Positions 7,161-24,552 of a DNA stretch of 39,539 bases are shown piece after piece. Origin of the DNA: Telmatospirillum siberiense (GTDB lineage: Bacteria > Pseudomonadota > Alphaproteobacteria > Rhodospirillales > Magnetospirillaceae); assembly GCF_002845745.1 (NCBI RefSeq), contig NZ_PIUM01000045.1, positions 1 through 39,539 on the forward strand, written 5' to 3'. The notes beneath the pieces were generated by a model. The model was not told where the DNA came from. It saw only the letters and a program-made list of their open reading frames with translations, and made no database searches. Every line of letters begins with the position of its first letter. The first letter of the stretch is position 1. A program made the position numbers and the translations under genes.

Positions 7161-8683
7161 TTCGCCTCTCCCGCCAAGGCGTTGACCGCCGCCGCCGCCA
7201 TGGCGCTGCCGCCGCGCCGGCCCGGCAGCGCGACGAAAGGAAGTCCGCTGGCGATCAGGGCGTCCTTCGATTCTGCGGCGCCGACGAATCCCACCGGGAA
7301 TCCCAGGATGAGGGCGGGGGGCGGGGCGCCTTCGGCGATCATGGCCAGCAATTCGAAAAGGGCGGTCGGCGCATTGCCGATGGCGACCACCGCGCCGTCC
7401 AGCCGGTCGGCCCACAGGCGCACCGCCGCCGCGCTGCGGGTGGTGCCGCATTTTTCGGCCAAGTCGAAGGCGCGGGGATCGTCGAGCAGGCAGATCACCG
7501 GATTGAGGGCGGGAAGCCGGCGGCGGATGATGCCGTGGGCCACCATCTGGGCATCGACCAGGATGGGTTTCCCTTCGGCCAGGGCGCGGCATCCGGCTTC
7601 GGCGGCGCCGGGGCGGAAGGACAGGGTGGCCGCCACGTCGGGCATGCCGCAGGCATGGACGACGCGGACCGCCAATTCCTCCATCGGTCCGGAAAAACGG
7701 CCGAGATCAGCTTCCCGGCGGATGATGGCGAAGGACTGGCGGTAGATTTCCGCGGGATCGCGGATGACGTCGCCGGGGCGACCGGCCTGCTCGCCGCCTA
7801 TGCCCAGAATCCAGCCCTCCTCCGTTTCGACGGTGGTCCGTTCCTCGGGCGTCAAGGCGGGATCGCCGGCGAACAGCGCGCCCAGTTTTCCCTCGTCATC
7901 GAGACGGGCGAAATGGCGGGTGAGCGCGCGGACCTGGCCGGCGTCCTTGACCGGCGCCGGGTCGGGTGCGATCAGCGAGGGATAGACTTCGGCTGCCAGG
8001 ATGGTGCCCGGCGCCGGTCGCTCCATCGGAACGAGGCCCGTTTCGAAGGGCCAGACACGGACATGGTCGCGCAGCCATGGGTGGTCGCGCAGTTCCCATA
8101 CCCTTGGGATACCGAGCAAAGTCTGCCCGCCGACGGCACCCGGCGCATAAAGTTTCCAGACCGGCTGGGCGCCCCGCGTCCGTCGTTCGGTCAGCCGGAA
8201 TTCCGGCAGGGATCCGGCTTCGTCGAAGCCGCCGGGTTTCTTTTGGCCGAGGGTCGGCCCGGCGGCGCCGGCCGGACAGCCCCAGAACGGGAAGGCCCGC
8301 CCTGAAACCTGCCCGTTCAGGCGGCCGGCCAGGGCGAATCGCTCGTTGCCGTTGTCGTCGCCATCCGCGACCAGGCGGGCCAGCCGGCGCCACAAGGTCC
8401 GCCAGTCGGCTTTCCCATCGTTCATCAGCGGGGCGAATCCCGCTGGAAAACCGAAATTGAAGTCGAAGCCGAGCAGGCAGGTCTTCCCGCGCGCCGCCAG
8501 ATCGGACAAGCGGTCGGCCAGCCAGCCGACGGCCATGCTGCGCGTCGGCGGGTTGACCGGGGCCTGATCGCCGGTGCCGCCGACCCCTCGTTCCCAAAGG
8601 CTGATCCAGATACTGTCAGCCCCCTGGCGCGGGGTGGCGGCGGCCGACCAGTCGACCATCACATAGGCGTCGAACAGCGCCAT
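7157..8683 (-). CDS. cobH: Precorrin-8X methylmutase (CobH/CbiC) with a large extra N-terminal domain
   Basis: Residues about 305-508 are CobH/CbiC, which moves the C-11 methyl to C-12 to give (cobalt-)hydrogenobyrinate. Seen are IRDPAEIYRQSFAIIRREAD, the VVHACGM motif with the expected catalytic histidine (His343), VDAQMVAHGI, AIGNAPTALFELL and GFPVGFVGAAESKDAL. Residues 1-300 are not part of any standard CobH. They begin AYVMVDWSAAATPRQGADSIW and include CLLGFDFNFGFPAGF (69-83) and ILAAEVYPSL (228-237). The early VDWS strand and the later D/F-rich strand suggest an RNase H-like fold related to DUF429-type proteins; this is a guess from pattern only. The start ATG is nine bases after the cbiX stop and has no strong ribosome site. 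The stop overlaps cobL (ATGA). Confidence 0.9.
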   Translation of the reverse strand: MALFDAYVMVDWSAAATPRQGADSIWISLWERGVGGTGDQAPVNPPTRSMAVGWLADRLSDLAARGKTCLLGFDFNFGFPAGFAPLMNDGKADWRTLWRRLARLVADGDDNGNERFALAGRLNGQVSGRAFPFWGCPAGAAGPTLGQKKPGGFDEAGSLPEFRLTERRTRGAQPVWKLYAPGAVGGQTLLGIPRVWELRDHPWLRDHVRVWPFETGLVPMERPAPGTILAAEVYPSLIAPDPAPVKDAGQVRALTRHFARLDDEGKLGALFAGDPALTPEERTTVETEEGWILGIGGEQAGRPGDVIRDPAEIYRQSFAIIRREADLGRFSGPMEELAVRVVHACGMPDVAATLSFRPGAAEAGCRALAEGKPILVDAQMVAHGIIRRRLPALNPVICLLDDPRAFDLAEKCGTTRSAAAVRLWADRLDGAVVAIGNAPTALFELLAMIAEGAPPPALILGFPVGFVGAAESKDALIASGLPFVALPGRRGGSAMAAAAVNALAGEAK

Positions 8684-8692
8684 GGCGGGCGA

Positions 8693-9697
8693 TCAGTGTT
8701 CGTGACCGTGGGTGTGGTGCGCATGCTCATGCGGATGGTCGTGTTCATGCTCGTGGCCGTGATCATGGCCGTGACCATGACCATGTTCGTGCGGTCCATG
8801 ATCGTGGGGGTGGTCTTCGGTGCCGATGCCGCGAACGTGATGGTGGTGGCCGGCCTGCACCGCGCCCACAGCATCCTCATAGCCGATCGCCTGTTCGCGA
8901 TATTTGCACAATTGGCAGTTCATCGCCGGCTGGCCGTCCAGCAACTCCTCCAGACGGTCGACGAAGGTGTCGATGACCAGCGGATGGTCGCGCAGGTAGG
9001 GGGCCTTCAGGAATTCGACGTCGGGAAAGCGCTTCGCCGCCTCGTCGGTCCACTGATAGATGCGCTTGACCAGGATGCCGGTGAACAGGAAATAGGGAAA
9101 GACCACGACGCGGGCGAAGCCCAGCTTCTGGACGCGGTCCAGGGCGGCGTCGACCAGGGGCGTCGCCACGCCGGAAAAAGCATATTCGGCCCAGCCGAAT
9201 CCCATGCCTTCCCACAGCATGCGGGTGACTTTGGCGATATTGGAATTGGCGTCGGGATCGTTGGTCCCGCGTCCGACCACCAGCAGCAGGGTATCGGCCC
9301 GGCTGACGGCCTGCCCCGAGGTGCGTTCGGCTTCCTCGATGCGTTCGGCGGCGGCTTTCAGCAGTTTCAGCTCGATCGCCAGTTCCCGGCCGTATTTGAC
9401 CTCGAGATCGGGATTTTCCGCGGCGAAATTATTGATCTCGGAAGGGAGGTCGTTCTTCACATGACCGGCGGCGAACAACATGCCGGGCAGGGCCAGGATG
9501 CGCCTGGCGCCCCGGCTCTTCAGGGCATCGAGACCGTCGCGGATTACCGGCCGGGCGAATTCCAGAAAGCCGCTTTCCAGGTCGAAGGCGGGCAGGCGTT
9601 TGCGCAGGTGCTGGGAGAGAAGGTTGAATTCCTCGATGGCTTGCCGGTCGCGGCTGCCGTGGCCGCAAATCATTACGGCTGTCTTTTCGTCTGTCAT
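8693..9697 (-). CDS. cbiX: Sirohydrochlorin cobaltochelatase, long form, with histidine-rich tail (CbiX)
   Basis: CbiX inserts cobalt into sirohydrochlorin, the entry to the early-cobalt pathway. The 334-residue protein has two CbiX-like halves. The first has AVMICGHGSRD (His13) and LPGMLFAAGHVKND (His79), candidate metal-binding active-site histidines. The second has LLLVVGRGTNDPDAN and VVVFPYFLFTGILVKRI. After the chelatase domain comes MNCQLC (259-264), the MXCXXC motif that in long CbiX proteins holds a 4Fe-4S cluster. Then comes a tail (284-334) with 24 histidines in 51 residues alternating with D, E, G and P. The tail probably binds or buffers cobalt or nickel. The ATG at 9697 has CGGAGG about 12 bases upstream. 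It is the first cobalamin gene of the leftward operon. Confidence 0.93.
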   Translation of the reverse strand: MTDEKTAVMICGHGSRDRQAIEEFNLLSQHLRKRLPAFDLESGFLEFARPVIRDGLDALKSRGARRILALPGMLFAAGHVKNDLPSEINNFAAENPDLEVKYGRELAIELKLLKAAAERIEEAERTSGQAVSRADTLLLVVGRGTNDPDANSNIAKVTRMLWEGMGFGWAEYAFSGVATPLVDAALDRVQKLGFARVVVFPYFLFTGILVKRIYQWTDEAAKRFPDVEFLKAPYLRDHPLVIDTFVDRLEELLDGQPAMNCQLCKYREQAIGYEDAVGAVQAGHHHHVRGIGTEDHPHDHGPHEHGHGHGHDHGHEHEHDHPHEHAHHTHGHEH

Positions 9698-9813: not shown

Positions 9814-10695
9814 TCAGGCGGTTCGCTGGGTCGCCCCGACGCCTTCGGCGACCAGGCTTTGCGCCAGCAATTCCGTGAGCCGCCGCTCCGCGAGCGAGGC
9901 GGGCTGGGCCCGGCAGACCAGGGACATCCACATCTCGGGAAGGGGAGGCAGGCCATCCTCCCGTCCGACGAGGCGCATCCCCGGCGTTACCATGTCGAGG
10001 GGGGCCACGGAAACTCCGATGCCGGCCAGAACGGCGCTTTTGGTCGAATCCCAATTCGTCGCCGTGCAGACGATTTCCCAGGTGGCGTCGTTCTTGGCCA
10101 AGGCGGACAAGGCCATGCGGCGGTAGAGATTGCCTTCCGATGGCAAGACCAGGCGGACGGCGCCGCGGGACGGGGGCATCTGTTCGCCGGCGACCCAGGC
10201 CACCGGAACCCGTCGGCCGGTCCTGCTTCCTTCCGGTTCGGCGAGAGAGGCGTTCACGATCAGGTCGAGCCGTCCATCCTGGAGGCATGTGTCGAGTTCG
10301 CGGCTCATCTTCACATCGATGGTCAGCGACGCCGAGGGGCAGTCGGCGGCGAAATCCCGCAGGATTTTTTCGAGCCCGAGGGCGGTGTATTCCTCGGGCA
10401 GTCCGACGCGGACAACTTCGGCGAATTCGACCGAGCGCACCCGTCGCATCAGTTCATCGTGGAGGGTCAGGATGCGTTTCGCATACCCGAGGACCAGATG
10501 TCCCTCGCGGGTCAGGGAAGCGCCATCCGTTCCGCGTCGGATCAACGGTAATCCGATGATGTCCTCAAGCCGTTTGAGGCGAAGACTGATGGCTGGCTGG
10601 GTGCGAAAAAGCTGATGGCTGGCCGCCGTAAAGCTTCCGGTCACTGCAATAGTGAAGAACGTTCTAAGCAATGAGAGATCAAGATCTCGGTGCAT
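9814..10695 (-). CDS. LysR-family transcriptional regulator
   Basis: The 293-residue product has an N-terminal winged helix-turn-helix (LSLLRTFFTIAVTGSFTAASHQLFRTQPAISLRLKRLEDIIG, residues 8-50 in two runs) followed by RRGTDGASLTREGHLVLGYA. The effector domain starts near residue 95 (VRVGLPEEYTALGLEKILRDF) and includes STKSAVLAGIGVSVAPLDMV. It has no clear signature that names the ligand. The gene lies upstream of cbiX on the same strand with a 118-base gap, so it could either be the first gene of the cobalamin operon or end before it. An AT-rich stretch at 10696-10860 probably carries its promoter and autoregulatory site. Confidence 0.9.
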   Translation of the reverse strand: MHRDLDLSLLRTFFTIAVTGSFTAASHQLFRTQPAISLRLKRLEDIIGLPLIRRGTDGASLTREGHLVLGYAKRILTLHDELMRRVRSVEFAEVVRVGLPEEYTALGLEKILRDFAADCPSASLTIDVKMSRELDTCLQDGRLDLIVNASLAEPEGSRTGRRVPVAWVAGEQMPPSRGAVRLVLPSEGNLYRRMALSALAKNDATWEIVCTATNWDSTKSAVLAGIGVSVAPLDMVTPGMRLVGREDGLPPLPEMWMSLVCRAQPASLAERRLTELLAQSLVAEGVGATQRTA

Positions 10696-11197: not shown

Positions 11198-13159
11198 TTA
11201 AACCGGCGGCACGGCCTGTTGTTGCGACATTCCGAGCAGAGCCCGCCGCAACTCGTCGGCGGCGACAGGTTTGTGCAGAATGCGCAGACCGCTGCCGTGA
11301 ACTTCCCGGACTCTTTCGGGTGCCGTATCGCCGGTGATGATGACGCTGGGAAGATGACGACCGGCCGCTTCGTTGATTTTCAAGACCGTGTCGATGCCGG
11401 TGAGGCCGGCGCTGAGCCGGTAGTCGGATATCACGATGTCGGGCAGGCTGTGCTTCTCGATGATGGAAAGCGCCTCCTCGCCGGTACGTGCCGTCATGGT
11501 CTGATATCCCCAACTGCGCAGCATGATGTCGAGGCTGTCGCGCAGCAGACCGTCGTCTTCGACCACCAGAACCATATGCCCGTTCCGCTTTTCGGTATCA
11601 CCGGCCGTCAAATGGCCGTTGCCCTGATGCTGATTGACCAGGGGCAGCGTGACCGAGAAGCAGGAGCCTTGGCCTAGCGCCGATCGCACGAAGACGGTTC
11701 CGCCGAGCAGACGCATGACCTTCTTGACGATGGATAGTCCCAGGCCCAAGCCTTGCGACCTGTCGCGGGCGGCATTGGCCACCTGGTGGAACTCTTCGAA
11801 GATTTCCTCCAGATGGTTGGGGGCGATGCCGATACCGGTGTCGATGACATCGATCCGCATCATCTTACTTTGTCGCCGGCATCCGATGAGGATGCGGCCC
11901 GTCGGACAGTAGCGCAGGGCGTTTTCCAGGAGATTACGCAGCACACGTTCGACGAGGACCGGATCGGTACGGACGTAAGCCGACGTCGGCACGACCCTGA
12001 AATCCAGCGAGCGATGTTCGGCGCGCAGCCGATATTCGTCGGCCAAGCGGCCGACGAGGGTATTCAGGCAGACCGTTTGCAGGGCGGGAACGATCACGCC
12101 GGCGTCCAACCGGGATATATCGAGCATGCTGTCGAACAGGAGGCGAAGCGCGTCCACCGCTTTCTCCATCTGGTCGACCACTTTTTGGGACGGGGCATCG
12201 GTCAGCCGGCTTTTCATGACCTCGATAAGCAGCAGTAGCGATTGCACCGGTTGGCGCAAGTCGTGGCTGGCCGCGGCGAGGAATTTCGATTTGGAAAGGC
12301 TCGCGCGTTCCGCTTCTGCTTTGGCGATGAAGGCCTCTTCCCGGGCGCGCGCCAGTTCTTCGCGTTGGCGCACCACGGAGGTGATCTCGATGGAGGCGCC
12401 GGTCAGTCCGATGATCTCTTGCTGGTCGTTGAAGATCGGTCGGGCCGAGGAGACGAAATGCCGTTCCTCCGTTTCCTGGCGGGGGCGCAGGGCGAGTTCC
12501 GTCCGCTGAGCCTGGCCGCTCGCCAGGACGGAACGGAAAAAGGTCATTAGGCGGCGCGCCGAGTCCGGCTCGAACAGATGTTCAGGCGTCTCGCCGACGA
12601 CATTGTAGTCCTTCATGCCGATTTGATTGTTGTAGACCCATGAATAGCGCAGTTCGCGATCAAGCTTGAAGACGACGATCTGGTTGACCGACAGGGCGGT
12701 TTCAAAACGTTCCTCGATGAGGTTGCGCCTTGCCGATTCCTCTCTGAGCGCATGTTCCATGCTTCGCAGCAGCGCGATATCGTCGAAAAACAGGACGAGA
12801 CCGTTGCCGTCGCAGCGGACGCGAAGGGAGACGGGGCCCGATTCGAGACCGAGATCCTGTTCGAACTGGCTGGCGTCTCGCGCCTTCAAAATCTGCCGAA
12901 GCTTCATTTCGAGGGGGGTGGCGGCGGCGACGCCGAAAAGATCCCTCGGTGTGCGGCCCAGAATGCGCGAAGCCGGGGCTCCGAGAATTTTTTCGGCTGC
13001 GCGGTTGACCAGGACGAAGTGCAGGTCCTCGTCCATTTCGGCATAGCCCTCCCGCATCTCGGACAGCACGATGTCCAGGCGGTCGCGTTCGATTTCCCGA
13101 AGCCGCGATGGCTTGATCAGCACCCTCACCAATGAAAACGGGAGGTTCTTGGTTATCAC
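11198..13159 (-). CDS. Soluble PAS-PAS hybrid histidine kinase with C-terminal receiver
   Basis: The 653-residue protein has no membrane segment. Residues about 25-135 form a first PAS-like domain (YAEMDEDLHFVLVNRAAEKILG). Residues 150-262 form a second PAS-PAC domain (VVFKLDRELRYSWVYNN to LTGASIEIT). A coiled-coil linker (264-292) leads to a HisKA domain with phospho-acceptor His299 in FLAAASHDLRQPVQSLLLL. The ATPase domain shows an N box (RNLLENALRY, 408-417), DTGIGIAP (440-447) and GLGLGLSI (470-477). A receiver follows (529-645), with acidic VVEDD at 532-536 and phospho-acceptor Asp579 in VISDYRL. There is no DNA-binding output domain, so phosphate must go to a separate partner. It is divergent from the AfsA-like gene, sharing a 301-base intergenic region. 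Confidence 0.9.
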   Translation of the reverse strand: MITKNLPFSLVRVLIKPSRLREIERDRLDIVLSEMREGYAEMDEDLHFVLVNRAAEKILGAPASRILGRTPRDLFGVAAATPLEMKLRQILKARDASQFEQDLGLESGPVSLRVRCDGNGLVLFFDDIALLRSMEHALREESARRNLIEERFETALSVNQIVVFKLDRELRYSWVYNNQIGMKDYNVVGETPEHLFEPDSARRLMTFFRSVLASGQAQRTELALRPRQETEERHFVSSARPIFNDQQEIIGLTGASIEITSVVRQREELARAREEAFIAKAEAERASLSKSKFLAAASHDLRQPVQSLLLLIEVMKSRLTDAPSQKVVDQMEKAVDALRLLFDSMLDISRLDAGVIVPALQTVCLNTLVGRLADEYRLRAEHRSLDFRVVPTSAYVRTDPVLVERVLRNLLENALRYCPTGRILIGCRRQSKMMRIDVIDTGIGIAPNHLEEIFEEFHQVANAARDRSQGLGLGLSIVKKVMRLLGGTVFVRSALGQGSCFSVTLPLVNQHQGNGHLTAGDTEKRNGHMVLVVEDDGLLRDSLDIMLRSWGYQTMTARTGEEALSIIEKHSLPDIVISDYRLSAGLTGIDTVLKINEAAGRHLPSVIITGDTAPERVREVHGSGLRILHKPVAADELRRALLGMSQQQAVPPV

Positions 13160-13460
13160 GATCGCTTAAGTCCTTAGGGGGGCGGTGCCGACAAATGTAG
13201 CGGGTTTGTGATGGGAGTGAGACTCAATTATAGGTGGCTGTGCGCAGGTCATAAGCCCTTTGATGATCGGCCTGGAACCTAAGGTTGGTGCGGGCTTCAC
13301 CAGTTTGGCCACAACGGTTAGTTATTCCGGTCCGAACCATGGAGGGGTGGAAACGGCGTTCTCGTGGTTCTTATAGGGTGCATAAAAACTATTAATTTCC
13401 GAACTAGCGATCATTGCACGAGGATCGCTTGCAAATAGCAACTTATAGGAGCTGTTTGCC
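13160..13460. promoter_or_regulatory. Divergent promoter region between kinase and AfsA-like gene
   Basis: The 301 bases hold no gene. They must carry the promoters of both divergent units. The right half (13370-13460) is AT-richer and contains an inverted repeat (13406-13429) and a good ribosome site AGGAG eight bases before the ATG at 13461. No -35/-10 pair is convincing enough to call. Confidence 0.55.
13406..13429. promoter_or_regulatory. Inverted repeat, candidate operator
   Basis: Perfect 7-bp arms AGCGATC (13406-13412) and GATCGCT (13423-13429) are separated by 10 bases. The dyad is centred 43 bases upstream of the AfsA-like start codon, where a regulator would block or contact polymerase. 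The protein that binds is unknown. Confidence 0.4.
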
Positions 13461-14345
13461 ATGGGTAATCACGCAGTTGCTGAAAGTGAATTCGTCACAC
13501 CTCTATCGGAGATTTCAGGTGCTCCTTTACGGGAGTCCGCTGCTCCTGTGGCGAAACGTCGCCCAATTCTGGTGGTTGGGGATAAATTCCGCGAATTTTC
13601 TTCAGAAAAGGCCGTTCTGACGCTTTCGCAACTGCAGGGATTACTGGATATCCCGGCGGGCTTGGCTTTGTGCGAACCCTTGTTTCTGATACCGGGGCAG
13701 GGGTTGGGCGAAAAGGATATCGAGTCGGTTCTGGCCCGCGCCCAGACTTCGGCCCATCGGGATCAGTTCGATTTCAGCCTGTGGCACAGCCTGCCGAAAC
13801 GGGCGGAGCGGGCTCTTTCGCATAAGCACCGGGCCAAGAACACGCTGATCTCCGCGCCACGACGGATTGATGCGTCGCTTTTCGAGCTCGATTTCCTGGT
13901 CGATGAGGATTGCGAGCTTATGGACGATCACCAGACGGGCCAGCATCTTCAGGGCATGCTGGTGGTCGAGGCGGCGCGCCAATCGTTTCTGGCCGTGACC
14001 GAGGCTTTCCTCCTGCCCCGGGACGGATCGAAATCTTACTTCGTCTTCAATTCCCTGGCCGCCGAATACAAGCGCTTCATGTTTCCGGTTCCCGCCCTCA
14101 TGCGTTATCGCGTCCGCGAGCGCGACGACAGTGGCCATAATCCCCGTTTCGTCGTCGATATCCATTTCGAGCAGGCCGGCCAGGAAGCGGCCAAGGTCAC
14201 TTGCGGGTTCACCGTCATGCCGGACTGGCGTATCCGCAAAATCGAACAAACCTTGGCGCAACAGGCGGTCGAGCGGCATTTTGCCGATCTCGGGACCTCC
14301 ATCGCGGCGATCCGGCCTCCGGCCGCCGCGTTGATCCTCGGGTGA
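13461..14345 (+). CDS. AfsA-like hotdog-fold protein (A-factor biosynthesis domain)
   Basis: I assign this 294-residue protein to the AfsA family (A-factor biosynthesis hotdog domain) from its central pattern. It has SHKHRAKNTLIS (120-131) corresponding to the family HK...V/L motif, then FELDFLVDED. This is followed by DDHQTGQHLQGMLVVEAARQ (155-174), which matches the characteristic H...Q/P-G-M...EA-RQ helix with candidate catalytic Glu170 and Arg173. One hotdog domain is clear (about 115-260); a divergent first repeat may occupy 35-110. AfsA of Streptomyces, about 300 residues, joins a beta-ketoacyl chain to dihydroxyacetone phosphate to start gamma-butyrolactone synthesis. The ATG at 13461 has AGGAG eight bases upstream. 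A HAD phosphatase gene follows after 6 bases. Substrate and product are inferred only from the family. Confidence 0.65.
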   Translation: MGNHAVAESEFVTPLSEISGAPLRESAAPVAKRRPILVVGDKFREFSSEKAVLTLSQLQGLLDIPAGLALCEPLFLIPGQGLGEKDIESVLARAQTSAHRDQFDFSLWHSLPKRAERALSHKHRAKNTLISAPRRIDASLFELDFLVDEDCELMDDHQTGQHLQGMLVVEAARQSFLAVTEAFLLPRDGSKSYFVFNSLAAEYKRFMFPVPALMRYRVRERDDSGHNPRFVVDIHFEQAGQEAAKVTCGFTVMPDWRIRKIEQTLAQQAVERHFADLGTSIAAIRPPAAALILG

Positions 14346-14351
14346 GCGGCG

Positions 14352-15044
14352 GTGTTTTCCTGTGATGTGGCGGCGATCGTCGCGGAGCGGGCCTATGCCT
14401 TCTTCGACGTCGACAACACGCTGATCGACGCGGTCAGCATGTTCAGTTTCCAGGCCTATTGGTATCGGAAGACCGGAGAGCGGGACGCCCAGGCAGCCTT
14501 CGATGGGGAAATTGCCGCTCTTCGTCGGCAAGGGGCGCCCAGGGAATTCATCAATCGCCGGTATTACGCCCATTTCGCCGGCCGCGAGGTCGTCCGTGTC
14601 GAACGCTGCGCCGAAGAGTGGTTCGGCCATCTCGAACGCAGCCGGCCCGATCTCTATCATGACGCCGTGATCGCCGAACTGCGGGGCCATCAGGCGGCAG
14701 GACGGGAGGCGGTATTGGTTTCCGGCTCCTTTCCGGCCCTGCTTGCCCGACTGGCATCCCGTTTGGGTGTGCGACATCTCCTGGCGACCTCCATGGAGGT
14801 CGAGGACGGGCGCTACACGGGCCGCATTTTCGATCCGCAGACCATCGGCGCCGGCAAGGCGACGGCCATCGGGCGATTCCTGGAGCGCATGCAGGCGCCG
14901 GCCGGGGCGTGCTATGCCTATGGCGATCATTCGTCCGACCTGCCGATGCTCCAGGCCGTTGGCCATCCCAACGTCGTTCGCGGGGATCCGGCTTTGGAGG
15001 CTTATGCTCAAACGGCGGGGTGGCGCATCCTCGCGGCGCGGTGA
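14352..15044 (+). CDS. HAD superfamily subfamily IB phosphatase
   Basis: The 230-residue protein carries all HAD-IB (SerB-like) motifs: FFDVDNTLIDAVSMF with nucleophile Asp19 and Asp21, LVSGSF (Ser124), Lys169 in GAGKATAI, and YGDHSSDLPML (190-200). A helical cap lies between motifs I and II. The start is GTG at 14352, six bases after the AfsA-like stop, so translation is likely coupled. HAD-IB enzymes dephosphorylate small phosphate esters. Next to an AfsA-like synthase, removal of phosphate from a butenolide-phosphate type intermediate is a reasonable hypothesis. The sequence alone would also fit a phosphoserine or phospholipid-type phosphatase. Confidence 0.88.
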   Translation: MFSCDVAAIVAERAYAFFDVDNTLIDAVSMFSFQAYWYRKTGERDAQAAFDGEIAALRRQGAPREFINRRYYAHFAGREVVRVERCAEEWFGHLERSRPDLYHDAVIAELRGHQAAGREAVLVSGSFPALLARLASRLGVRHLLATSMEVEDGRYTGRIFDPQTIGAGKATAIGRFLERMQAPAGACYAYGDHSSDLPMLQAVGHPNVVRGDPALEAYAQTAGWRILAAR

Positions 15045-15159
15045 GGGAGGCTACCCCGTTTCGGCATGATGTGGCGGCGCGTCCCGTTACCCATTTTCCC
15101 AGTGTGGGCTTATCATGGGCGCCGCGCGTTTTGCGTGGGCAGAAATGAGAGGTCTGATC

Positions 15160-15816
15160 ATGTTGACGAGACGTCAGGTGAACGTCGGACTGATGGCCGG
15201 GGCGCTTGCGGCGATGCCGGGTTTCGCCTCGGCCGAGGCGGTGCGGCCGATTTCGTTGCCGCCGCCGCGGACGGAAGGCGGGGTTTCGTTGCGGGCCGCC
15301 TTGCAAAAACGCCGTTCGATCCGCGAGTTTTCCGACCGGCCGCTGCCGTTGGCCCTGCTGTCGGATCTGTTGTGGGCGGCCTATGGGATCAATCGTCCGG
15401 AAAGCGGCGACCGCACGGCACCCTGCTGGCGCCATCAGGTGGTCATCGACATCTATGTGGCGCTGCCCGACGGGGCCTGGCTCTACGCGCCGAAGGAACA
15501 TGAATTGCAGCCGCATGTCGCGGGCGACCTGCGGGCGGCGACCGGAATGCAGGATTTCGTGGGCCAGGCGCCGCTCAATCTCGTCTATGTGGCGCAGGGC
15601 GACCAGATGGGCAAGATCGCCGAGGAGGAACGGCGGTTGTGGGCCAATGTCGACACCGGTTTCATTGCCCAGAACGTCTATCTTCTGGCCGCCGCCGAAG
15701 GCCTTGCCACCGTTTTCCGGGCATCGGTGCCCCGCCAGCAATTGGCGGCCAGCTTGAAATTGTCCGGGGAGCAGTTCATCACTGCGGCGCAGACCGTGGG
15801 CTATCCACGGAGTTGA
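15160..15816 (+). CDS. Exported nitroreductase-family (SagB-like) flavoprotein
   Basis: This is a 218-residue product. Residues 1-25 are a signal peptide with a twin-arginine-like start (MLTRRQVNVGLMAG) and an ASA cleavage motif, so it probably acts in the periplasm after folding with FMN. The mature part has LRAALQKRRSIREFSDRPL, the nitroreductase N-terminal FMN-binding RRS-R motif, then LLSDLLWAAYGINRP. Later come NVDTGFIAQNVYLLAAAEGLATVFRAS and a terminal QTVGYPRS. SagB-type and related small nitroreductases share this layout. I start at 15160 because GAGAGG precedes it and the signal peptide begins there. The 115-base gap from the HAD gene leaves operon membership open. The substrate is unknown. 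Confidence 0.85.
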   Translation: MLTRRQVNVGLMAGALAAMPGFASAEAVRPISLPPPRTEGGVSLRAALQKRRSIREFSDRPLPLALLSDLLWAAYGINRPESGDRTAPCWRHQVVIDIYVALPDGAWLYAPKEHELQPHVAGDLRAATGMQDFVGQAPLNLVYVAQGDQMGKIAEEERRLWANVDTGFIAQNVYLLAAAEGLATVFRASVPRQQLAASLKLSGEQFITAAQTVGYPRS

Positions 15817-16333: not shown

Positions 16334-17788
16334 TCAATTTCCCTTCTCCGCCTTCCCCTCCGCCGTCTGATCGAGACTCTGCCAGCCTCCGCCCAAGGCC
16401 TTGTAGAAGGCGATCGATTGTTGCACGCGGGTCAGGGCGCTCTGGGCCAATCCGTCCTCGGCGGTGTTGAGGTTGCGTTCGCTGTTGACCACGTTGATAA
16501 AACCGCCGAGACCGCTGCGATAGAGTTCCGTCGCCCGCTGCAAAGCCAGGCGGTTGGCTTCGACGGCCTGCCTCAGCGCGGTCTGGCGCCGCTCCTCGTT
16601 GGTCAGGGCGACCAGGGAATCCTCGACGTCCTGGAACGCGGCGAGGACGGTATGCTGGTAGCTCAGGCGGTCTTCCTCGGCGAGCGCTCTCGCCTTATCC
16701 ACGTTGGCCTCCAGCGCGCCGCCCTGAAAAAGCGGCAGGTTGGCCCCGCCGGCCAAGCCCCAGATCAGGCCCTGGCTGGTCAGGAGCTTGTTCATGGTGC
16801 CGGCCTCCCAGCCGATCGACGGCGTCAGGGTGAAGCTGGGGAATTCCTGCGCGATGGCGACGCCGATTTCGGCATTGGCGGCGGCCAATGTGCGTTCCGC
16901 CGAACGAATGTCCGGGCGGTTGCGGACCACCTCGGAGGGCAGGCTCGACGGCAGGTTGGGGGGAACCGGCGGAAGAATGCCGGGAAGATCGGCCAATTCG
17001 ACTTTGAGCGCACCCGGTTCCCGGCCGAGCAGGACGGCGATGGCATGGGCGTTCTGCGCCACCATCGTTTCGAACTGGGGCAGGCTGGCGCGTACCGTTT
17101 CCAGTTCCGCCCGTGCCTGGGCGACATCCAGTTCGGTGCCCATCCCGTTGGCGAACTTCTGCTGGGCGAGGTCGAGCGCGTCCTGGTCGGCGGCGATCGT
17201 CTGGCGGGCGATACGGATTCGTTCCTGGGCCGAGCGCAGCTGGCTGTAATCGGTGCCCAGTTCCCCCAGCAGGCTGACCAGGACGGCGCGCCGGTCCCAG
17301 GTCGTCGCGTCCAGGGTGGCGTCGGCCGCCTCCACCGTGCGGCGGGTCTTGCCGAACAGATCGATTTCCCAGGAAGCGTCGAAGCCGGCCTGGAAGGTGT
17401 TGGAAAGACTGCGGACCTGCGGAAGCGTGAGATTCTTGCTCTGCTGTGCGCGCTGAGCCGTGGTTTGCGCCGACAGGCTCGGATAGTACCCGGCTGCGGC
17501 GATGGTGCGATCCGCCCTTGCGGCCAAAATTCGCTGGGCGGCGATGCGGAGGTCATGGTTGCCGGCTATGGCCTCCTCGACCAGATGGTCGAGTTCCGGA
17601 TCCCGGAAACCCGTCCACCAGCGGGCCAGCCGCGGAGCGGCGTCCGGCCCCTGGTTGAGGCCGTCCGTCGCCTCGCTCCATGTGTCCGGCGCGGCGATCC
17701 GGGGCGGTTGATAGTCGGGGCCGACGGTGCAGGCCGACAGGGCCGCGACGACGGCCACGATCGGGAGGGCGGCGTAGGATCTCAGCAT
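16334..17788 (-). CDS. Outer-membrane efflux factor, NodT/OprM family lipoprotein
   Basis: This is a 484-residue TolC-like outer-membrane channel of the RND/MFS efflux type. The signal peptide ends in a lipobox (VVAALSACTVGPDYQPP, Cys21), followed by the family signature GPDYQPP and WWTGFRDPELDHLVEEA. Two repeats of helical hairpins follow (NHDLRIAAQRILAARADR; NAEIGVAIAQEFPSFTLTPS), as expected for two OEP domains. The start at 17788 is two bases past the stop of the upstream MFS gene. The frame stays open to 19387, but the upstream part is a shadow of the MFS gene. It is the last gene of the emrA-emrB-OMF operon. Confidence 0.92.
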   Translation of the reverse strand: MLRSYAALPIVAVVAALSACTVGPDYQPPRIAAPDTWSEATDGLNQGPDAAPRLARWWTGFRDPELDHLVEEAIAGNHDLRIAAQRILAARADRTIAAAGYYPSLSAQTTAQRAQQSKNLTLPQVRSLSNTFQAGFDASWEIDLFGKTRRTVEAADATLDATTWDRRAVLVSLLGELGTDYSQLRSAQERIRIARQTIAADQDALDLAQQKFANGMGTELDVAQARAELETVRASLPQFETMVAQNAHAIAVLLGREPGALKVELADLPGILPPVPPNLPSSLPSEVVRNRPDIRSAERTLAAANAEIGVAIAQEFPSFTLTPSIGWEAGTMNKLLTSQGLIWGLAGGANLPLFQGGALEANVDKARALAEEDRLSYQHTVLAAFQDVEDSLVALTNEERRQTALRQAVEANRLALQRATELYRSGLGGFINVVNSERNLNTAEDGLAQSALTRVQQSIAFYKALGGGWQSLDQTAEGKAEKGN

Positions 17789-17790
17789 CT

Positions 17791-19380
17791 TCAATGTCCT
17801 TGGGGAGAACGCCCGCCGGCCTTGATCGGGGCGAACAGCAGGGTCAGGGGAACGAGCAGCAGGGCAAGGCCGGCGGCCACCTGGAAGGCGTCGACATAAG
17901 CCAGGATCGCCGCCTGGCTTTGCAGCATCTGGTAAACATGGCCGGTCGCCCGCGACAAAAGGTCGACCGGCGCAGTCCCCATGGCGCTCAGGGCGTCCGT
18001 CTGCCGCCGCAAGGTTGCGGCATAGGCCGGGTCGTAAGGGCTCAGGTGCTGGGACAGATAGGCCATGTGGACCTGGCTGTGTTCCGTGACGTAAGCCGTC
18101 GCCAGGGAAATGCCGATCGATCCTCCGATGTTGCGGAACATGGTGTAGAGGCTGGCGGCGTCGCCATTGAGATGGGGCGACAGCGACGAATAGGCGATGG
18201 TGCTGATCGGTACGAACAGGAAGGCCAGCGCCGCCGTCTGGGCGGCCCGCATGAGCGCCAGGGTGGTGAAGTCGACCTGCGGATTCAGGGTCGCGGCGTA
18301 GAGGAGCGAGGCACCGAGCGCCAGGAAACCGAAGGCGATGATGAAGCGGGTCTGCACCTTGCGCATCAGCCTGAGGACGACCGGGATGAACAGGATGGTC
18401 AGCACGGTGCCCGGCGACAGGATCAGCCCCGCCCAGGTCGCGTTGTATCCGAGCTGGGTCTGGGCCAATTGGGGAATCAGCACGGCGCTCGAATAAAGCA
18501 CGACGGCCATGCCGAAGATCATCAGGCTGCCGAGGGCGAAATTGCGGTCTGCCAGGGCGCGGAGATTGACCACCGGCCGGCTTGTCGTCAAAAGCCAGAC
18601 CACCGCGCCGACCAGCCCGATGACGGCGGCCACGGCGAAGACCTGGATGAAGGGCGAGGACAGCCAATCCTCGTCCTCGCCGCGATCGAGCACGACCTGT
18701 AAGCATCCGAGGCCGAGGGCGATGAGGGCCAGCCCGATCTGATCGATATGGGTCTTGCCCGTCTCGGCCTTCGCCCAGGGTGGGTCCTCGACCAGCCGGA
18801 CGACGGCGAGGAAGGAAAGGATGCCCACCGGCACATTGATCAGGAACACCCATTGCCAGGAAAAATTGTCGGTGATCCAGCCGCCCATGGTCGGGCCCAG
18901 GATGGGGGCGACGATGGTGGCGATGGCGGTGATGGAAAAGGCGGTCCCCCGTTTTGCCGGTTCGAAGGTGTCGAGAAGGATGGATTGCTGGTTGGGTTGC
19001 AAGCCGCCGCCGAAAAAACCCTGCATGATGCGGAACAGCACCAGTTCGGGCAGGCTGCTGGCCAAGCCGCACAGCAGCGAGCACAAGGTGAACATGCCGA
19101 TGCAGACCAGGAAATAGCGCCGCCGCCCGAAAACCCGGCCCAGCCAGCCGGAGATCGGCAGGACGATGCCGTTGGCGACCAGATAGGAGGTCAGCGTCCA
19201 GGTGGCGTCGTCGGAACTGGCCGACAACGATCCCGCGATATGGGGCAGGGCGACGTTGACGATGGTGGTGTCCAGCACCTCCATGAAGGTGGGCAAGGTG
19301 ACGGCGAGCGCAATGATCCAGGGATTGGCCGCGGGCCTCCAATCGGTCCGCGTCCGGTCGGTGGCCGCGGGTCCGCTCAT
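17791..19380 (-). CDS. DHA2-family MFS drug efflux permease, EmrB/QacA type
   Basis: The 529-residue inner-membrane transporter has the 14-helix DHA2 layout. The first helix region contains LPTFMEVLDTTIVNVALPHI, the motif D1 of this group. It is followed by ISGWLGRVFGRRRYFLVCI (motif A) and GPTMGGWITDNFSWQWVFLI (motif C of antiporters). It exchanges protons for lipophilic compounds and works with an EmrA-like adaptor and a TolC-like channel, both encoded beside it. The ATG at 19380 overlaps the adaptor stop (ATGA), and its stop is followed two bases later by the channel gene. Confidence 0.93.
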   Translation of the reverse strand: MSGPAATDRTRTDWRPAANPWIIALAVTLPTFMEVLDTTIVNVALPHIAGSLSASSDDATWTLTSYLVANGIVLPISGWLGRVFGRRRYFLVCIGMFTLCSLLCGLASSLPELVLFRIMQGFFGGGLQPNQQSILLDTFEPAKRGTAFSITAIATIVAPILGPTMGGWITDNFSWQWVFLINVPVGILSFLAVVRLVEDPPWAKAETGKTHIDQIGLALIALGLGCLQVVLDRGEDEDWLSSPFIQVFAVAAVIGLVGAVVWLLTTSRPVVNLRALADRNFALGSLMIFGMAVVLYSSAVLIPQLAQTQLGYNATWAGLILSPGTVLTILFIPVVLRLMRKVQTRFIIAFGFLALGASLLYAATLNPQVDFTTLALMRAAQTAALAFLFVPISTIAYSSLSPHLNGDAASLYTMFRNIGGSIGISLATAYVTEHSQVHMAYLSQHLSPYDPAYAATLRRQTDALSAMGTAPVDLLSRATGHVYQMLQSQAAILAYVDAFQVAAGLALLLVPLTLLFAPIKAGGRSPQGH

Positions 19381-20489
19381 CGCTCATTCACCGTGGCGAC
19401 GACGGAAAGGCCCAGGGGCAGGGGAGTCTTGTTGTCCAATCCGCCGGTGATGGTGACCTTGACGGGCACCCGCTGAACGATCTTGATGAAATTACCCGTG
19501 GCGTTTTCCGCCGGAAAACTGCTGAAGCGCGAGCCGCTGCCCATCTGCACGCTGTCGACGCGCCCTTCCAGATGCAATTGTGGGAAGGCGTCGGCGGCGA
19601 TGTGCACGGTCTGCCCCGGCCGCATGCCCGCGAGTTGCGATTCCTTGAAATTGGCGGTGACCCAGACGTCCGGCGAAACCAGGGACATCAGGGATTGACC
19701 GACCTGCACATAGGCGCCCGCCTCGACATTGCGTTTGGTCACCCAGCCGTCCTCTGGCGCCGTGACGTGGGTGTAGGCGAGGTTGAGGTCTGCCTGGGCG
19801 AGGTCGGCCCTGGCCTGCTCGACCTGGCTTTCGATCTGTTTGACCTGCGCATCCGCGGTGGCGATGTTCAGTCCGACCATCCGGGCCTTGCGGAGTTTCG
19901 CCTCGGCGTCGGCCAGCGATGCCTGGGCCGATCGCTCGGAGGCCGTCGCCGCGTCGATATCCTGCTGGGTGGTCGCCCGGATATCCACGCGCTTCTGGCG
20001 GGCGAGGTCGGCCTGGGCCTTGGTGAGCGTCGCCATGGCAGAGGCCCGCTGGGCTTCCGCCGAAGCGAGATCGGATGGATAGGTGATACGGGCCATTTCG
20101 GCGGCGAGCCGGGCGCTTTCCAGTTGCGCCTCGGCCAGGTTCAGGGTCGAGGCCGCCTTGTCGTGCGCCACCTGGAAATCGCGGGGGTCGATTTCCAGCA
20201 ACACCTGCCCGGCCCTGACCCTTTGATTGTCGGTGACCGCCAGAGAACCGACATAACCGGCGACCTTCGGCGCGATGGGAATCGCCCGGCCGTCGGTAAA
20301 GGCGTCATCGGTGCTTTCCTGGCCTTGCCGTGAAACGTAGAAGGTAAGCCCGCCGGCGGCGATCACGATGCCGGCGAGGATAAGCAGGATACGAGGGGAG
20401 CGGCGGCGGGCGGAAACGGCGGGCGATGGTCTGTCGTCGTTCTTGCCGTCGCGTTTGTCCCGGTCTGGGGCGAGGGCGGTCTGGGACAT
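19377..20489 (-). CDS. HlyD/EmrA-type membrane fusion protein
   Basis: This 370-residue adaptor links the MFS pump to the outer-membrane channel. A proline-flanked transmembrane anchor lies at about 32-50 (ILLILAGIVIAAGGLTFYVS). The biotinyl-lipoyl-like half follows (IPIAPKVAGYVGSLAVTDNQ, with VRAGQVLLEIDPRDF). Next comes a long coiled-coil hairpin rich in A, Q, E and R (about 95-215), then the second lipoyl half (LAYTHVTAPEDGWVTKRNV) and beta-barrel. AAAGGA lies about eight bases before the ATG at 20489. It is the first gene of the efflux operon, transcribed divergently from tetR under two palindromic operators. Confidence 0.92.
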   Translation of the reverse strand: MSQTALAPDRDKRDGKNDDRPSPAVSARRRSPRILLILAGIVIAAGGLTFYVSRQGQESTDDAFTDGRAIPIAPKVAGYVGSLAVTDNQRVRAGQVLLEIDPRDFQVAHDKAASTLNLAEAQLESARLAAEMARITYPSDLASAEAQRASAMATLTKAQADLARQKRVDIRATTQQDIDAATASERSAQASLADAEAKLRKARMVGLNIATADAQVKQIESQVEQARADLAQADLNLAYTHVTAPEDGWVTKRNVEAGAYVQVGQSLMSLVSPDVWVTANFKESQLAGMRPGQTVHIAADAFPQLHLEGRVDSVQMGSGSRFSSFPAENATGNFIKIVQRVPVKVTITGGLDNKTPLPLGLSVVATVNER

Positions 20490-20533
20490 CCGAGATCCTT
20501 TCTGCGAAGCGGGCGGCGGCCGTCCGGATATAA

Positions 20534-20550
20534 AACTGTACCGTTCAGTG
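20534..20550. promoter_or_regulatory. TetR operator, imperfect copy
   Basis: AACTGTACCGTTCAGTG resembles the perfect palindrome at 20596-20616 with two changes in its right half. It lies 45 bases upstream of the emrA-like start codon. The centre-to-centre distance to the other copy is 64 bases, about six helical turns. Confidence 0.6.
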
Positions 20551-20595
20551 CAGTTGGCGGAGTTTTATAGACCGGGCGAAGGAACCTGTCTACAA

Positions 20596-20616
20596 TGAAC
20601 TGTACCGTACAGTTCA
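20596..20616. promoter_or_regulatory. TetR operator, perfect 21-bp palindrome
   Basis: 10-bp arms TGAACTGTAC and GTACAGTTCA flank a single C. It lies 21 bases before the tetR start codon, so binding would repress tetR itself and, with the copy at 20534-20550, the divergent efflux operon. Confidence 0.75.
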
Positions 20617-20637
20617 GTTTGAAAGGCGAGCATCATC

Positions 20638-21261
20638 ATGTCCGACGAGATCCCGGCCGGGCCATGCAGTGCAAAGGTGACGCAAATCCGGGTGGCCGCC
20701 TGCGAGCTCTTTCTGGCGAATGGATTCCAGCGGACGTCGATGGACCAGGTGGCCGCCCGCGCCAATGTTTCGAAAACCACGCTTTATGCCCATTTCGTCA
20801 GCAAGGCGGCGCTTTTCCTTTCGGTCCTCGAGGAGGAGAAGCGACGCTTGGGGTTGGGCATTCCCAAGGAGTTGCCGGTGGCGCCGGCCAACGTTCGCGA
20901 CTGGTTGCGTGATATCGCCAATGCGCTCCTGAGCGCCATGACCAATCGCACGGTGATGAGTCTGTTCCGGCAGGTGATCGCCGAAGCCGGTCATACCCCG
21001 GATCTGGGCCGGACCCTGTGGGACGAGGGGCCCTGCGCCGGCCGTGCGCGGATGGCGGCGATCCTGTCCTGGTTCGCCGAGGCGGGGCAGTTGGCGTTCG
21101 ATGACGCCGATTTGGCGGCGGGCCAGTTCCTGGCGTTGGTGCGGGGCGATTTCACCATGCGCTGCCTGATGGATTCGGAGTGGAAACCCTCCCGCGAGAT
21201 CATCGAGCGGCATGTCGAACAGAGCCTCGATTTCTTCCTGGGACACTATGGCGCCGTCTGA
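20638..21261 (+). CDS. TetR/AcrR-family repressor of the divergent efflux operon
   Basis: The 207-residue regulator has an N-terminal helix-turn-helix (IRVAACELFLANGFQRTSMD, then VAARANVSKTTLYAHFVSKA, residues about 18-57) typical of TetR proteins. It is followed by an all-helical ligand domain of the AcrR C-terminal type (FRQVIAEAGHTPDLGRTLWDEG). It almost certainly binds the palindromes at 20534-20550 and 20596-20616 and is released by an efflux substrate. The ligand cannot be read from the sequence. The ATG at 20638 has GAAAGG about 12 bases upstream. Confidence 0.93.
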   Translation: MSDEIPAGPCSAKVTQIRVAACELFLANGFQRTSMDQVAARANVSKTTLYAHFVSKAALFLSVLEEEKRRLGLGIPKELPVAPANVRDWLRDIANALLSAMTNRTVMSLFRQVIAEAGHTPDLGRTLWDEGPCAGRARMAAILSWFAEAGQLAFDDADLAAGQFLALVRGDFTMRCLMDSEWKPSREIIERHVEQSLDFFLGHYGAV

Positions 21262-21323
21262 TACCGGCGATGCCAGATCAAGCCCGGGTTGACGGCGGCC
21301 ATCGCCTCGCCCATCCTTGACCC

Positions 21324-22316
21324 ATGTTTCCGCTGTATGCTGCGGGCGGGCCGATCGATCCTCTGATGATCCTGGTGGCCGCCCTGATCATCGACGCCAT
21401 TATCGGCGATCCTCCCTGGTTGTGGCGGCTGATCCCCCATCCGGTGGCGATGATCGGCAGCCTGATCCATTTCCTTGAGCAAAAACTCAATCGCGATAAG
21501 CGCAGCCCGCTCGATCGGCGCTTGCGCGGCGCCCTGGTCGCCGCCGGCATGACCCTTGCCGCGGCGGGGCTCGGCTATTGCGTCAGCGATCTGCGCCGCG
21601 ACTGGCATTGGGGTTGGGCGGTCGAGGCCGTTCTGATCTGGACGCTGGTCGCCCAGCGCAGCCTGTTCGGCCATGTCGCCGCCGTGGCTCGCGCCGTCGA
21701 CCGCGGAGGCCTGGAGGAGGGGCGCCGGGCGGTGGCGAAAATCGTCGGGCGTGATCCGGAGACGCTGGACGAGTTCGGCGTGGCGCGGGCGGCTATCGAA
21801 TCCTGCGCCGAGAATTTCGCCGATGCGGTGGTCGCGCCGGTCTTCTGGTATGTCCTGTTCGGGTTTCCCGGTCTGCTGGCCTATAAGACGGTCAACACCA
21901 TGGACAGCATGATCGGCCACCGTTCCGAGCAATATCGCGATTTCGGCATGGTGGCGGCCCGCCTGGACGATGCGATGAATCTGCTGCCCGCCCGCCTGGC
22001 CGGGATCATGCTGGCCCTGGCCGCCGCCTTCGTTCCCAAGGGCCATCCCGTCGCGGCCCTGAAGGTGATGCTGAGCGACCACGGTCACCACCGTTCGCCC
22101 AATTCCGGCTGGCCGGAGGCGGCGATGGCCGGCGGCCTGGATCTGTCTCTGGCCGGCCCGCGGCGCTATCCGGGTTACGTCGCCCAGGAACAATGGATCG
22201 GTGACGGCCGCGCCCGGGCGACCACCAGCGACATCCGCCGCGCCTTGCTGGTCATGGCTGTGGCCTGCCTGCTGAACGTCGGCGCGGTCATCCTGCTGGT
22301 CGTCGCCCAGGGGTGA
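21324..22316 (+). CDS. cobD: Adenosylcobinamide-phosphate synthase (CobD/CbiB)
   Basis: This integral membrane enzyme attaches the aminopropanol (phosphate) arm to adenosylcobyric acid. The 330-residue product shows IIDAIIGDPPWLWRLIPHPV near the start, SCAENFADAVVAPVFWYVLFG, KTVNTMDSMIGHRSEQY, and SPNSGWPEAAMAGGL, all hallmarks of CbiB. Several hydrophobic helices are seen, including one at the C terminus (LLVMAVACLLNVGAVILLVV). The start at 21324 lacks a strong ribosome site. It lies 62 bases after tetR on the same strand and converges on cobQ, separated by a strong hairpin (22349-22377). Confidence 0.94.
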   Translation: MFPLYAAGGPIDPLMILVAALIIDAIIGDPPWLWRLIPHPVAMIGSLIHFLEQKLNRDKRSPLDRRLRGALVAAGMTLAAAGLGYCVSDLRRDWHWGWAVEAVLIWTLVAQRSLFGHVAAVARAVDRGGLEEGRRAVAKIVGRDPETLDEFGVARAAIESCAENFADAVVAPVFWYVLFGFPGLLAYKTVNTMDSMIGHRSEQYRDFGMVAARLDDAMNLLPARLAGIMLALAAAFVPKGHPVAALKVMLSDHGHHRSPNSGWPEAAMAGGLDLSLAGPRRYPGYVAQEQWIGDGRARATTSDIRRALLVMAVACLLNVGAVILLVVAQG

Positions 22317-22348
22317 CGCGGGGGCCCGGTTTTAGAGCGCGTTGCGGT

Positions 22349-22377
22349 CTCCTCTCCCGCCTCTGGCGGGAGAGGAG
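22349..22377. terminator. Strong hairpin between convergent cobD and cobQ
   Basis: A perfect 13-bp stem (CTCCTCTCCCGCC / GGCGGGAGAGGAG) with a TCT loop lies between the two converging stops. There is no long T tract on either side, so termination may be only partial, but position and strength suggest a bidirectional terminator. Confidence 0.65.
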
Positions 22378-22411
22378 CTTATCTGAATGTCCACAGACCC
22401 TGGGAGCCGGC

Positions 22412-23884: not shown

Positions 23885-24551
23885 GGATTTCTTTCAGGCG
23901 GTTGGCTTGGGGATTGCTGACCGCGTTGTCGAGGACGATGGCGCGCGAGGAGACGTTCTGGCCGTAATAGGCCGCGTTCCAGGATTCGCGCGGTGAAAGC
24001 GAGGTCCCTTCCAGCGACAATCCGCCATAGAGACCAACCGCCGACAGTGAAATGGCGAGGACGTCCGCTCCCATATTGCTGGTGGTCGAGGCCCCGATAC
24101 CGGCGCCGACGACCAGGAAGGTGATGCCGGCGTCGCCACCGAACTTGAACTGGTTGGCCAGGATGGCGTGAAGGGCTTTTTCCGTGTTGATGATGAACAG
24201 GATGGAGGAGCTTTCCAGGCCGATCTGCAGGCCGAGGCTGCCCCCTTCCATGGTATAGAAGGCCGGCGATCCCCAGGTGCCGTCGGGAAGATGGGGCAAT
24301 AGCACCCCGTTGCCGTATTGGCCCCCCAGGATGAAACCGCCCTTGTAGAGATCGGGAACGATCAGGACCGCCCGCGACTTCTGCAGATCGTCGCGAAAGG
24401 AGGTCTGGAAGTTCTGATCGGTCTTCAACCGTTCGACGGTCGCAGCGGCGTTGTTGACCGTTTTCTCCTGATCGACCCGCGCCACGGCCGGCGTGGCGGC
24501 AAGACCCAGGACCGTCACAAGGCAAAGGGCTAGTCCCCGCAGTCTTCTCAT
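23874..24551 (-). CDS. SYLF-domain (Ysc84/DUF500) exported protein
   Basis: The 225-residue protein starts with a signal peptide ([20 protein letters not shown]). The mature part has [27 protein letters not shown], the SYLF pattern, followed by [28 protein letters not shown] and a C-terminal [24 protein letters not shown] domains bind phospholipids, and bacterial members are secreted or envelope proteins of unclear role. The ATG at 24551 directly follows the cobO stop (one base between), with GGAG inside the last cobO codons. The stop overlaps the cobQ start. Its place inside a tight cobalamin operon is unusual. No cobalamin-binding motif is seen. Confidence 0.9.
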
Positions 24552-24552
24552 C

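Follow-up and report, generated by a model that had tools for sequence, protein, structure and literature searches.

An AfsA-like gene and a HAD-IB phosphatase gene linked to sensor kinase and LysR genes in Telmatospirillum siberiense: a candidate chemical signalling unit

Introduction

Hormones of the AfsA type are signals of Streptomyces and are read by ArpA-like TetR proteins. The canonical gamma-butyrolactone synthases AfsA, ScbA and BarX carry two PF03756 domains and the signature H-x2-GM-x3-EAxRQ, and a TetR/ArpA-type receptor gene is linked to theirs.

What follows on individual systems is drawn from the accessible parts of the cited reports. SabA/SabP and MmfL/MmfP of Streptomyces are precedents for pairing the synthase with a phosphatase (PMC6930871, PMC7756379, PMC7037778). 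In Streptomyces ansochromogenes the AfsA-like synthase and dedicated phosphatase of the SabA/SabP/SabD system yield a butenolide signal, and the system includes ArpA-like receptors (SabR1/SabR2) and the dehydrogenase SabD (PMC6930871, PMC7756379). The MmfL/MmfP/MmfH system for furans and its counterpart AhfaL/P/H are compact sets in which a butenolide synthase and a phosphatase stand with regulators, two of them TetR-family repressors, and with an oxidoreductase, MmfH or AhfaH (PMC7037778). AfsA-like genes in Gram-negative bacteria have already been published (PMC7756379, PMC7756420, PMC8719888). In Burkholderia gladioli the chemistry belongs to PBS domains, which stand at the end of the antibiotic-producing gladiostatin/gladiofungin polyketide synthases, and the cluster also encodes putative phosphatases (PMC7756379, PMC7756420); in vitro, the Burkholderia AfsA-like domain condensed dihydroxyacetone phosphate (DHAP) with a beta-ketothioester, and added alkaline phosphatase then gave the butenolide (PMC7756379). 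An A-factor-like cluster of Pseudomonas strain Ps664 combines an AfsA-like gene with a hydrolase, P450 and MFS genes, and the accessible text on it mentions no kinase (PMC8719888).

We examined a locus in the alphaproteobacterium Telmatospirillum siberiense where an AfsA-like gene and a phosphatase gene lie beside two regulatory genes. The window, a stretch of 39,539 bases, is contig C39 of a 6.2 Mb genome, and its relevant features are:

9814..10695, minus strand: LrhA-type LysR regulator, the fourth gene of the unit (HTH_1 and LysR_substrate domains)
11198..13159, minus strand: soluble hybrid histidine kinase, PAS-PAS-HisKA-HATPase-REC (Pfam)
13370..13397, plus strand: conserved palindromic element CTTAT-N6-CATAA-NN-ACTAT-N-AATT, proposed as a regulator operator or part of the afsA promoter (comparison of upstream regions)
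13461..14345, plus strand: AfsA-like (phosphorylated butenolide synthase-like) hotdog-family protein with a distinct N-terminal region (PF03756 and signature)
14352..15044, plus strand: HAD-IB phosphatase (TIGR01490 over cut-off; D19, D21, S124, K169, D192 and D196)

The four genes form a cassette of about 5.4 kb. It resembles the Sab, Mmf and Ahfa sets in its synthase and phosphatase genes, but has a sensor kinase and a LysR regulator where those have TetR-family proteins, and contains no MmfH/AhfaH-type oxidoreductase. No TetR match was obtained among the nine proteins scanned between 7.2 and 19.4 kb, nor near the window with one TetR representative as query. Unlike the Burkholderia PBS domains, the AfsA-like protein is encoded by a stand-alone gene with a sensor. 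In the literature searched, from which subscription journals were largely absent, we found no description of a unit of AfsA, HAD and kinase genes.

Results and Discussion

The AfsA-like protein

The open reading frame at 13461-14345 (plus strand) encodes 294 amino acids and contains HKHRAKNTLIS and E170-A-A-R173-Q, confirming the AfsA hotdog pattern that the initial annotation had read there. In the profile search suggested at that time, PF03756 matched residues 121-251 with 49.6 bits (curated cut-off 24, E 5e-13) and was the sole Pfam match down to E 0.1. In the genome search the protein scored 51.8 bits as the single PF03756 match of its own genome, and none of 14 control genomes matched. 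Judged from its sequence, the protein is a member of the AfsA family on a branch apart from the canonical proteins, and sequence profiles tentatively suggest a hotdog fold for it; the profile of the AfsA-like proteins (alignment A3) matched a FabZ-type dehydratase (8ayi, E 7e-4).

The name AfsA-like held at the level of the family, PF03756, but not in the sense of a canonical two-hotdog ScbA/BarX enzyme. The protein has one PF03756 domain where the canonical proteins have two, and scored 18.5 bits with the ScbA/BarX model NF041195 (cut-off 200), whereas all five tested two-domain Streptomyces proteins scored 322-378 and three single-domain relatives 20-26; its substrate may therefore differ. 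Residues 1-110, which have no Pfam match, stand in place of the first canonical hotdog domain, and this N-terminal region is conserved over 57 proteins, with the motifs VVGDKF, TxSQL and GQG (G81 invariant; V39, F43, T54, G79 and Q80 in at least 90% of the A3 rows).

As in canonical AfsA proteins, the signature H162-x2-G-M-x3-E170-A-x-R173-Q is present. H162, G165, E170, A171, R173 and Q174 were invariant and M166 at least 90% conserved in the 57 rows of A3; the spacing H-x2-GM-x3-EAxRQ was invariant in five of five canonical rows (alignment A4), and the signature equals that of the canonical second PF03756 domain in residue and spacing. In a profile comparison, residues 107-266 aligned with the first half of the canonical set (83% probability).

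A different chemistry might be considered, in which the hotdog protein uses another phosphorylated C3 compound or another acceptor, and the HAD enzyme completes a lipid or intermediate for the cell's own use. The replacement of the first hotdog domain by a region without Pfam match, the separate branch (SH-aLRT 98) and a score far under the ScbA/BarX cut-off would fit this; but the signature is kept, the loci surveyed below repeatedly contain partner genes for supplying the beta-ketoacyl substrate and for removing phosphate, and we consider such a departure quite unlikely. By analogy with the described synthases, AfsA-type chemistry is probable for the enzyme pair.

NCBI names the relatives of the protein "AfsA-related hotdog domain-containing protein", and the closest named ones come from Rhodospirillales MAG bin_346 (locus L017) and Telmatospirillum (L018). 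In a plasmid search 18 records were returned, all with less than 60% identity.

The HAD-IB phosphatase

The initial annotation had placed a HAD-IB phosphatase gene six bases after the AfsA-like gene, and this proved correct: the frame is intact, begins with GTG 6 bases past the AfsA stop, and its product scored 138.7 bits with TIGR01490 (cut-off 98.3). Residues D19, D21, S124, K169, D192 and D196, which we take to be catalytic, are present and were invariant across the six rows of alignment A2. In a PHROGs search the HAD protein matched one phage family without assigned function, and the AfsA-like protein and the nitroreductase-like protein encoded beyond the HAD gene gave no match.

The hybrid kinase

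The divergent gene across a gap of 301 bases (13160-13460) encodes two PAS domains, HisKA, HATPase and a receiver by Pfam, in agreement with the soluble PAS-PAS kinase described at first. No membrane-like segment was found in the kinase, its top 19-residue Kyte-Doolittle mean being 1.51 as compared with 2.61 and 2.58 for two CHASE5 kinases. H299 and D579 sit in motifs whose roles we assume. The core resembles NahK/ErcS (NF041832), yet at 345.2 bits lies below the NCBIfam cut-off of 400. In the orthologue from Telmatospirillum locus L018 (5400-7139), one open frame, about 95 residues of the ATPase domain are missing; this kinase may therefore be inactive there, or the assembly may be faulty.

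The LysR gene and the upstream palindrome

The LysR gene at 9814-10695, absent from the gene set first proposed, belongs to the unit; its profile (A7) matched the LrhA chain 7yhj with E 4e-50. The afsA upstream regions of four genomes (G000, G002, G034 and G006, see below) share CTTAT-N5/6-CATAA-NN-ACTAT. The exact 23-base palindrome form occurred once per genome in all four and in none of the 57 others, the pattern having been derived from those four genomes, so that what is informative is its absence elsewhere and its occurrence as a single copy; its reversed control occurred once, in G002. In G034 and G006 the palindrome lies between the LysR gene and afsA, where a LysR operator would be, and we infer that it may bind LysR.

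As a regulon marker the palindrome at 13370-13397 was not supported, the mismatch search being no better than its reversed control: when as many as 3 mismatches were tolerated, a single extra site (in G002) turned up for the 28-base form, against two in G000 and one in G002 for the control. Nor was a hairpin supported, as no stable fold was obtained as single-stranded DNA. Within 500 bases upstream of 13 CHASE5-type loci, the search for a similar palindrome returned only three AT-rich matches, in two Kiloniella loci. A scan of the DNA for consensus promoters and terminators gave 2 promoter-like sites (1.5 in shuffles) and 1 terminator-like site (5.1 in shuffles), and thus no signal.

Linkage and boundaries of the four genes

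Within 61 relative genomes, close relatives of all four genes were confined to the same 4 and were linked there, the window's own being counted in this and the two following totals. The AfsA match was confined to the same 4 among 317 genomes of the order, and the PF03756 model matched 4 of 385 genomes of the class, 3 of them over the cut-off; the match in G143 (L009/L016), at 21.5 bits below the cut-off of 24, was discarded as a FabZ-like dehydratase by sequence reading. Best scores among the 61 genomes were, in bits, 650, 462, 301 and 219 for AfsA (113 for a second copy in G006); 510, 335, 260 and 208 for HAD (166 for the second G006 copy, then 60); 634, 388, 232 and 224 for LysR (next 142); and 557, 323, 200 and 172 for the sensor region of the kinase (next 72). 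The top four matches of each gene lie on the afsA-bearing contigs of G000, G002, G034 and G006. The whole kinase (1416, 1017, 620 and 457, next 417) separates less sharply than its sensor region because the kinase core is common.

Gene order is LysR-kinase-AfsA-HAD in the window and in G002, kinase-LysR-AfsA-HAD in G034 and LysR-AfsA-HAD-kinase in G006, and the linkage has thus been kept through rearrangement. A first look gave 123 kinase candidates in the window's own genome, so that a nearby kinase by itself is weak evidence and the gene could be a chance neighbour in a kinase-rich genome; but in each of the four afsA genomes its sensor region is part of the linked set, elsewhere in the 61 no match exceeds 72 bits, and this, together with the survey counts below, leaves chance proximity very improbable.

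Comparison with two genomes of the same genus places the boundaries of the unit near 9.7 and 15.1 kb. In G001 a distance of 191 bases separates the cbiX match from the nitroreductase match, and a search of the 19 kb stretch returned none of the four genes; the 12 kb stretch from G004 gave a match for cbiX and none for the four genes or the nitroreductase. The nitroreductase-like gene at 15115-15816, considered as a possible MmfH-like oxidoreductase, was rejected as a member, since in G001 it stands beside cbiX without the cassette and in the stretches from G034 and G006 it was not found near afsA. The unit thus delimited includes neither a transporter nor a tailoring enzyme of its own.

Cobalamin genes lie on both sides (window 7157-9697 and 16334-28910), with CbiC and CbiX named by Pfam and CbiB, CobQ and CobN by sequence reading. 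An efflux set at 16.3-20.5 kb (NodT and EmrB by NCBIfam, EmrA by sequence reading) also occurs in G002; in the G001 stretch it was not found.

Survey of AfsA-HAD loci

Genome contigs were scanned with alignment A1 and one peptide pattern, DH[QI][TS]GQHxQ, upon which all counts are conditional; of 174 stretches obtained, 81 encode relatives and 80 were kept. Neighbours within 7.5 kb were counted by tblastn (E 1e-5), and domains were named on representatives. A HAD gene was near the AfsA relative in 77 of the 80 loci, the exceptions being L041, where the contig ends, L074 (Photorhabdus khanii), with a partial AfsA match, and L043 (Ferrovibrio), which has afsA and a kinase and gave no HAD match. 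The association of the two genes, for which a survey of neighbourhoods had been suggested, is therefore conserved in other genomes.

Sensor genes were linked to 16 loci. The window-type sensor region occurred in three (L017, L018 and L022), and the other 13 have a CHASE5 membrane kinase unrelated to it; the window kinase and the CHASE5 kinase of L019 share only the core, at 26% identity, and the AfsA-HAD pair is thus linked to two different kinds of sensor. An SBP_bac_3 protein was found in 12 of the 80 loci and a REC-PAS-GGDEF-EAL protein in 10, nine of which are CHASE5 loci and one (L051) weak at 47 bits. The histidine-kinase core was present in 16 of 16 sensor-linked loci, a partly circular count given how these loci were defined; none was detected in the remaining 64 loci, some of which are shortened by contig ends. 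This contrast further argues against a chance neighbour.

For a tree of the AfsA proteins (78 rows) 65 of the 80 loci were used, the other 15 being near-copies or without a clean called frame. It was made by a quick method with SH-aLRT as the only support (the program's mark being 95); of the canonical rows, one was represented by its last 420 residues and another, G443, by a partial frame, and long-branch rows, including L082, L084, L095 and three canonical ones, were placed unsurely. The AfsA-like branch was separate from canonical AfsA (98). The 17 kinase-linked proteins, the window's included, formed one set at 92, below the mark, and the four PAS-type proteins one set at 98; the CHASE5-type proteins did not form one set. 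A link of the enzyme pair to the kinase, first put forward tentatively, is strongly supported by the joint occurrence of sensor region and afsA in the same four genomes, the survey counts and this set in the tree.

A HAD gene without a detected kinase was found in 62 of the 80 loci, mostly in longer operons of biosynthetic look. Two families, represented in L032 by proteins lacking any Pfam match, occurred in 50 and 53 of the 80 loci, tautomerase in 39, CMD in 42, thiolase in 21 and FabH in 21, one of these weak; thiolase and FabH make beta-ketoacyl thioesters, which fits the substrate of AfsA. The longer operon, seen in 39 of the 80 loci (for example L028, L032, L040 and L069) and in L167, contains the two Pfam-less proteins, the AfsA-like protein, often a tautomerase, HAD, CMD, aldo-keto reductase, thiolase and LysR; its hosts are Serratia, Photorhabdus, Erwinia, Enterobacter, Vibrio, Ruegeria, Halomonas, Bartonella and others, and it looks like an uncharacterised biosynthetic pathway. 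In Ruegeria pomeroyi, SPO_RS21570 is of the same protein family as the AfsA-like protein and, as in the unit, has HAD-IB hydrolase and LysR genes nearby; this locus, however, is a longer operon that also encodes hypothetical proteins, a tautomerase, CMD and an aldo-keto reductase, and no kinase was present in the stretch examined. G006 (L012 and L013) carries both the kinase-type unit and the longer-operon type, which makes it unlikely that the two are redundant.

These operons, with their tautomerase, CMD, aldo-keto reductase, thiolase and transporter genes and LysR regulators, could mean that the product is a regulated metabolite: the kinase and LysR would sense an outside cue and switch on a butenolide- or furan-type compound acting elsewhere, as in antibiosis, defence or redox processes. 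The Burkholderia AfsA-like domain, which in the accessible parts of the reports builds part of an antibiotic (PMC7756379, PMC7756420), is in keeping with this. The window's unit, however, is without its own tailoring enzyme or transporter, and two different kinds of sensor kinase beside the pair fit a sensed product better; we regard a metabolite of this sort as unlikely.

Proposed function of the unit

From the chemistry of the family, the AfsA-like protein would join a beta-ketoacyl thioester from fatty-acid metabolism to dihydroxyacetone phosphate, giving a phosphorylated 2-acyl-3-hydroxymethyl butenolide, from which the neighbouring HAD-IB enzyme would strip the phosphate to leave a membrane-permeable lactone. 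This product or a derivative would be sensed by the LysR protein, the soluble PAS-PAS hybrid kinase or both, and the palindrome at 13370-13397 would mediate feedback on the afsA promoter. Where a CHASE5 membrane kinase instead accompanies the enzyme pair, as in related loci, genes for a periplasmic binding protein and a REC-PAS-GGDEF-EAL protein are usually present too. That the product is a signal is suggested by the butenolide-derived signals of the Streptomyces counterparts and by the linkage of the pair to two different kinds of sensor kinase; that the kinase or LysR senses it is what we infer. The kinase is a candidate receptor since a sensor kinase of some kind recurs, and LysR is an equally good one in view of its gene and possible operator.

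We set the chance a little above even that the four genes are a self-contained cassette for synthesis of and response to a signal, the dephosphorylated butenolide made by the pair. Only tentatively do we extend this to a patchily distributed cell-cell signalling of Gram-negative bacteria, in which a single-hotdog AfsA-type synthase and a dedicated HAD phosphatase would make a butenolide read by sensor histidine kinases: a CHASE5 membrane kinase in some lineages, mostly with a periplasmic binding protein and GGDEF-EAL output, and a soluble PAS-PAS hybrid kinase with LysR in the window's branch. The linkage of the enzyme pair to sensor kinases hints at an undescribed chemical signalling system in Gram-negative bacteria. 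If this is true, AfsA chemistry would feed into two-component and c-di-GMP signalling in Rhodospirillales, Azospirillum, Kiloniella, Gilvimarinus and others, and Gram-negative bacteria would gain a class of signal besides the acyl-homoserine lactones. The cassette of about 5.4 kb is directly testable, and the combination of AfsA-HAD with a kinase provides a neighbourhood rule for finding more.

Other occurrences of the family

Loci of Actinomycetota (L063-L064, L068, L070-L071, L073, L075-L077, L080, L083, L085-L094 and L096, from Glycomyces, Nocardiopsis, Streptomyces and others) contain the single-hotdog family with HAD, mostly FabH-like genes and often TetR genes. Seven of ten such genomes searched also have a two-domain AfsA region, with two PF03756 matches together in one gene region; that of G443 has an internal stop. 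In Intestinirhabdus alba a gene for an MmyB-like regulator (PF17765; L082:9645-10511) comes next after the AfsA-HAD pair; according to the accessible part of the report, a member of the MmyB-like family was found in complex with myristic acid (PMC3406030).
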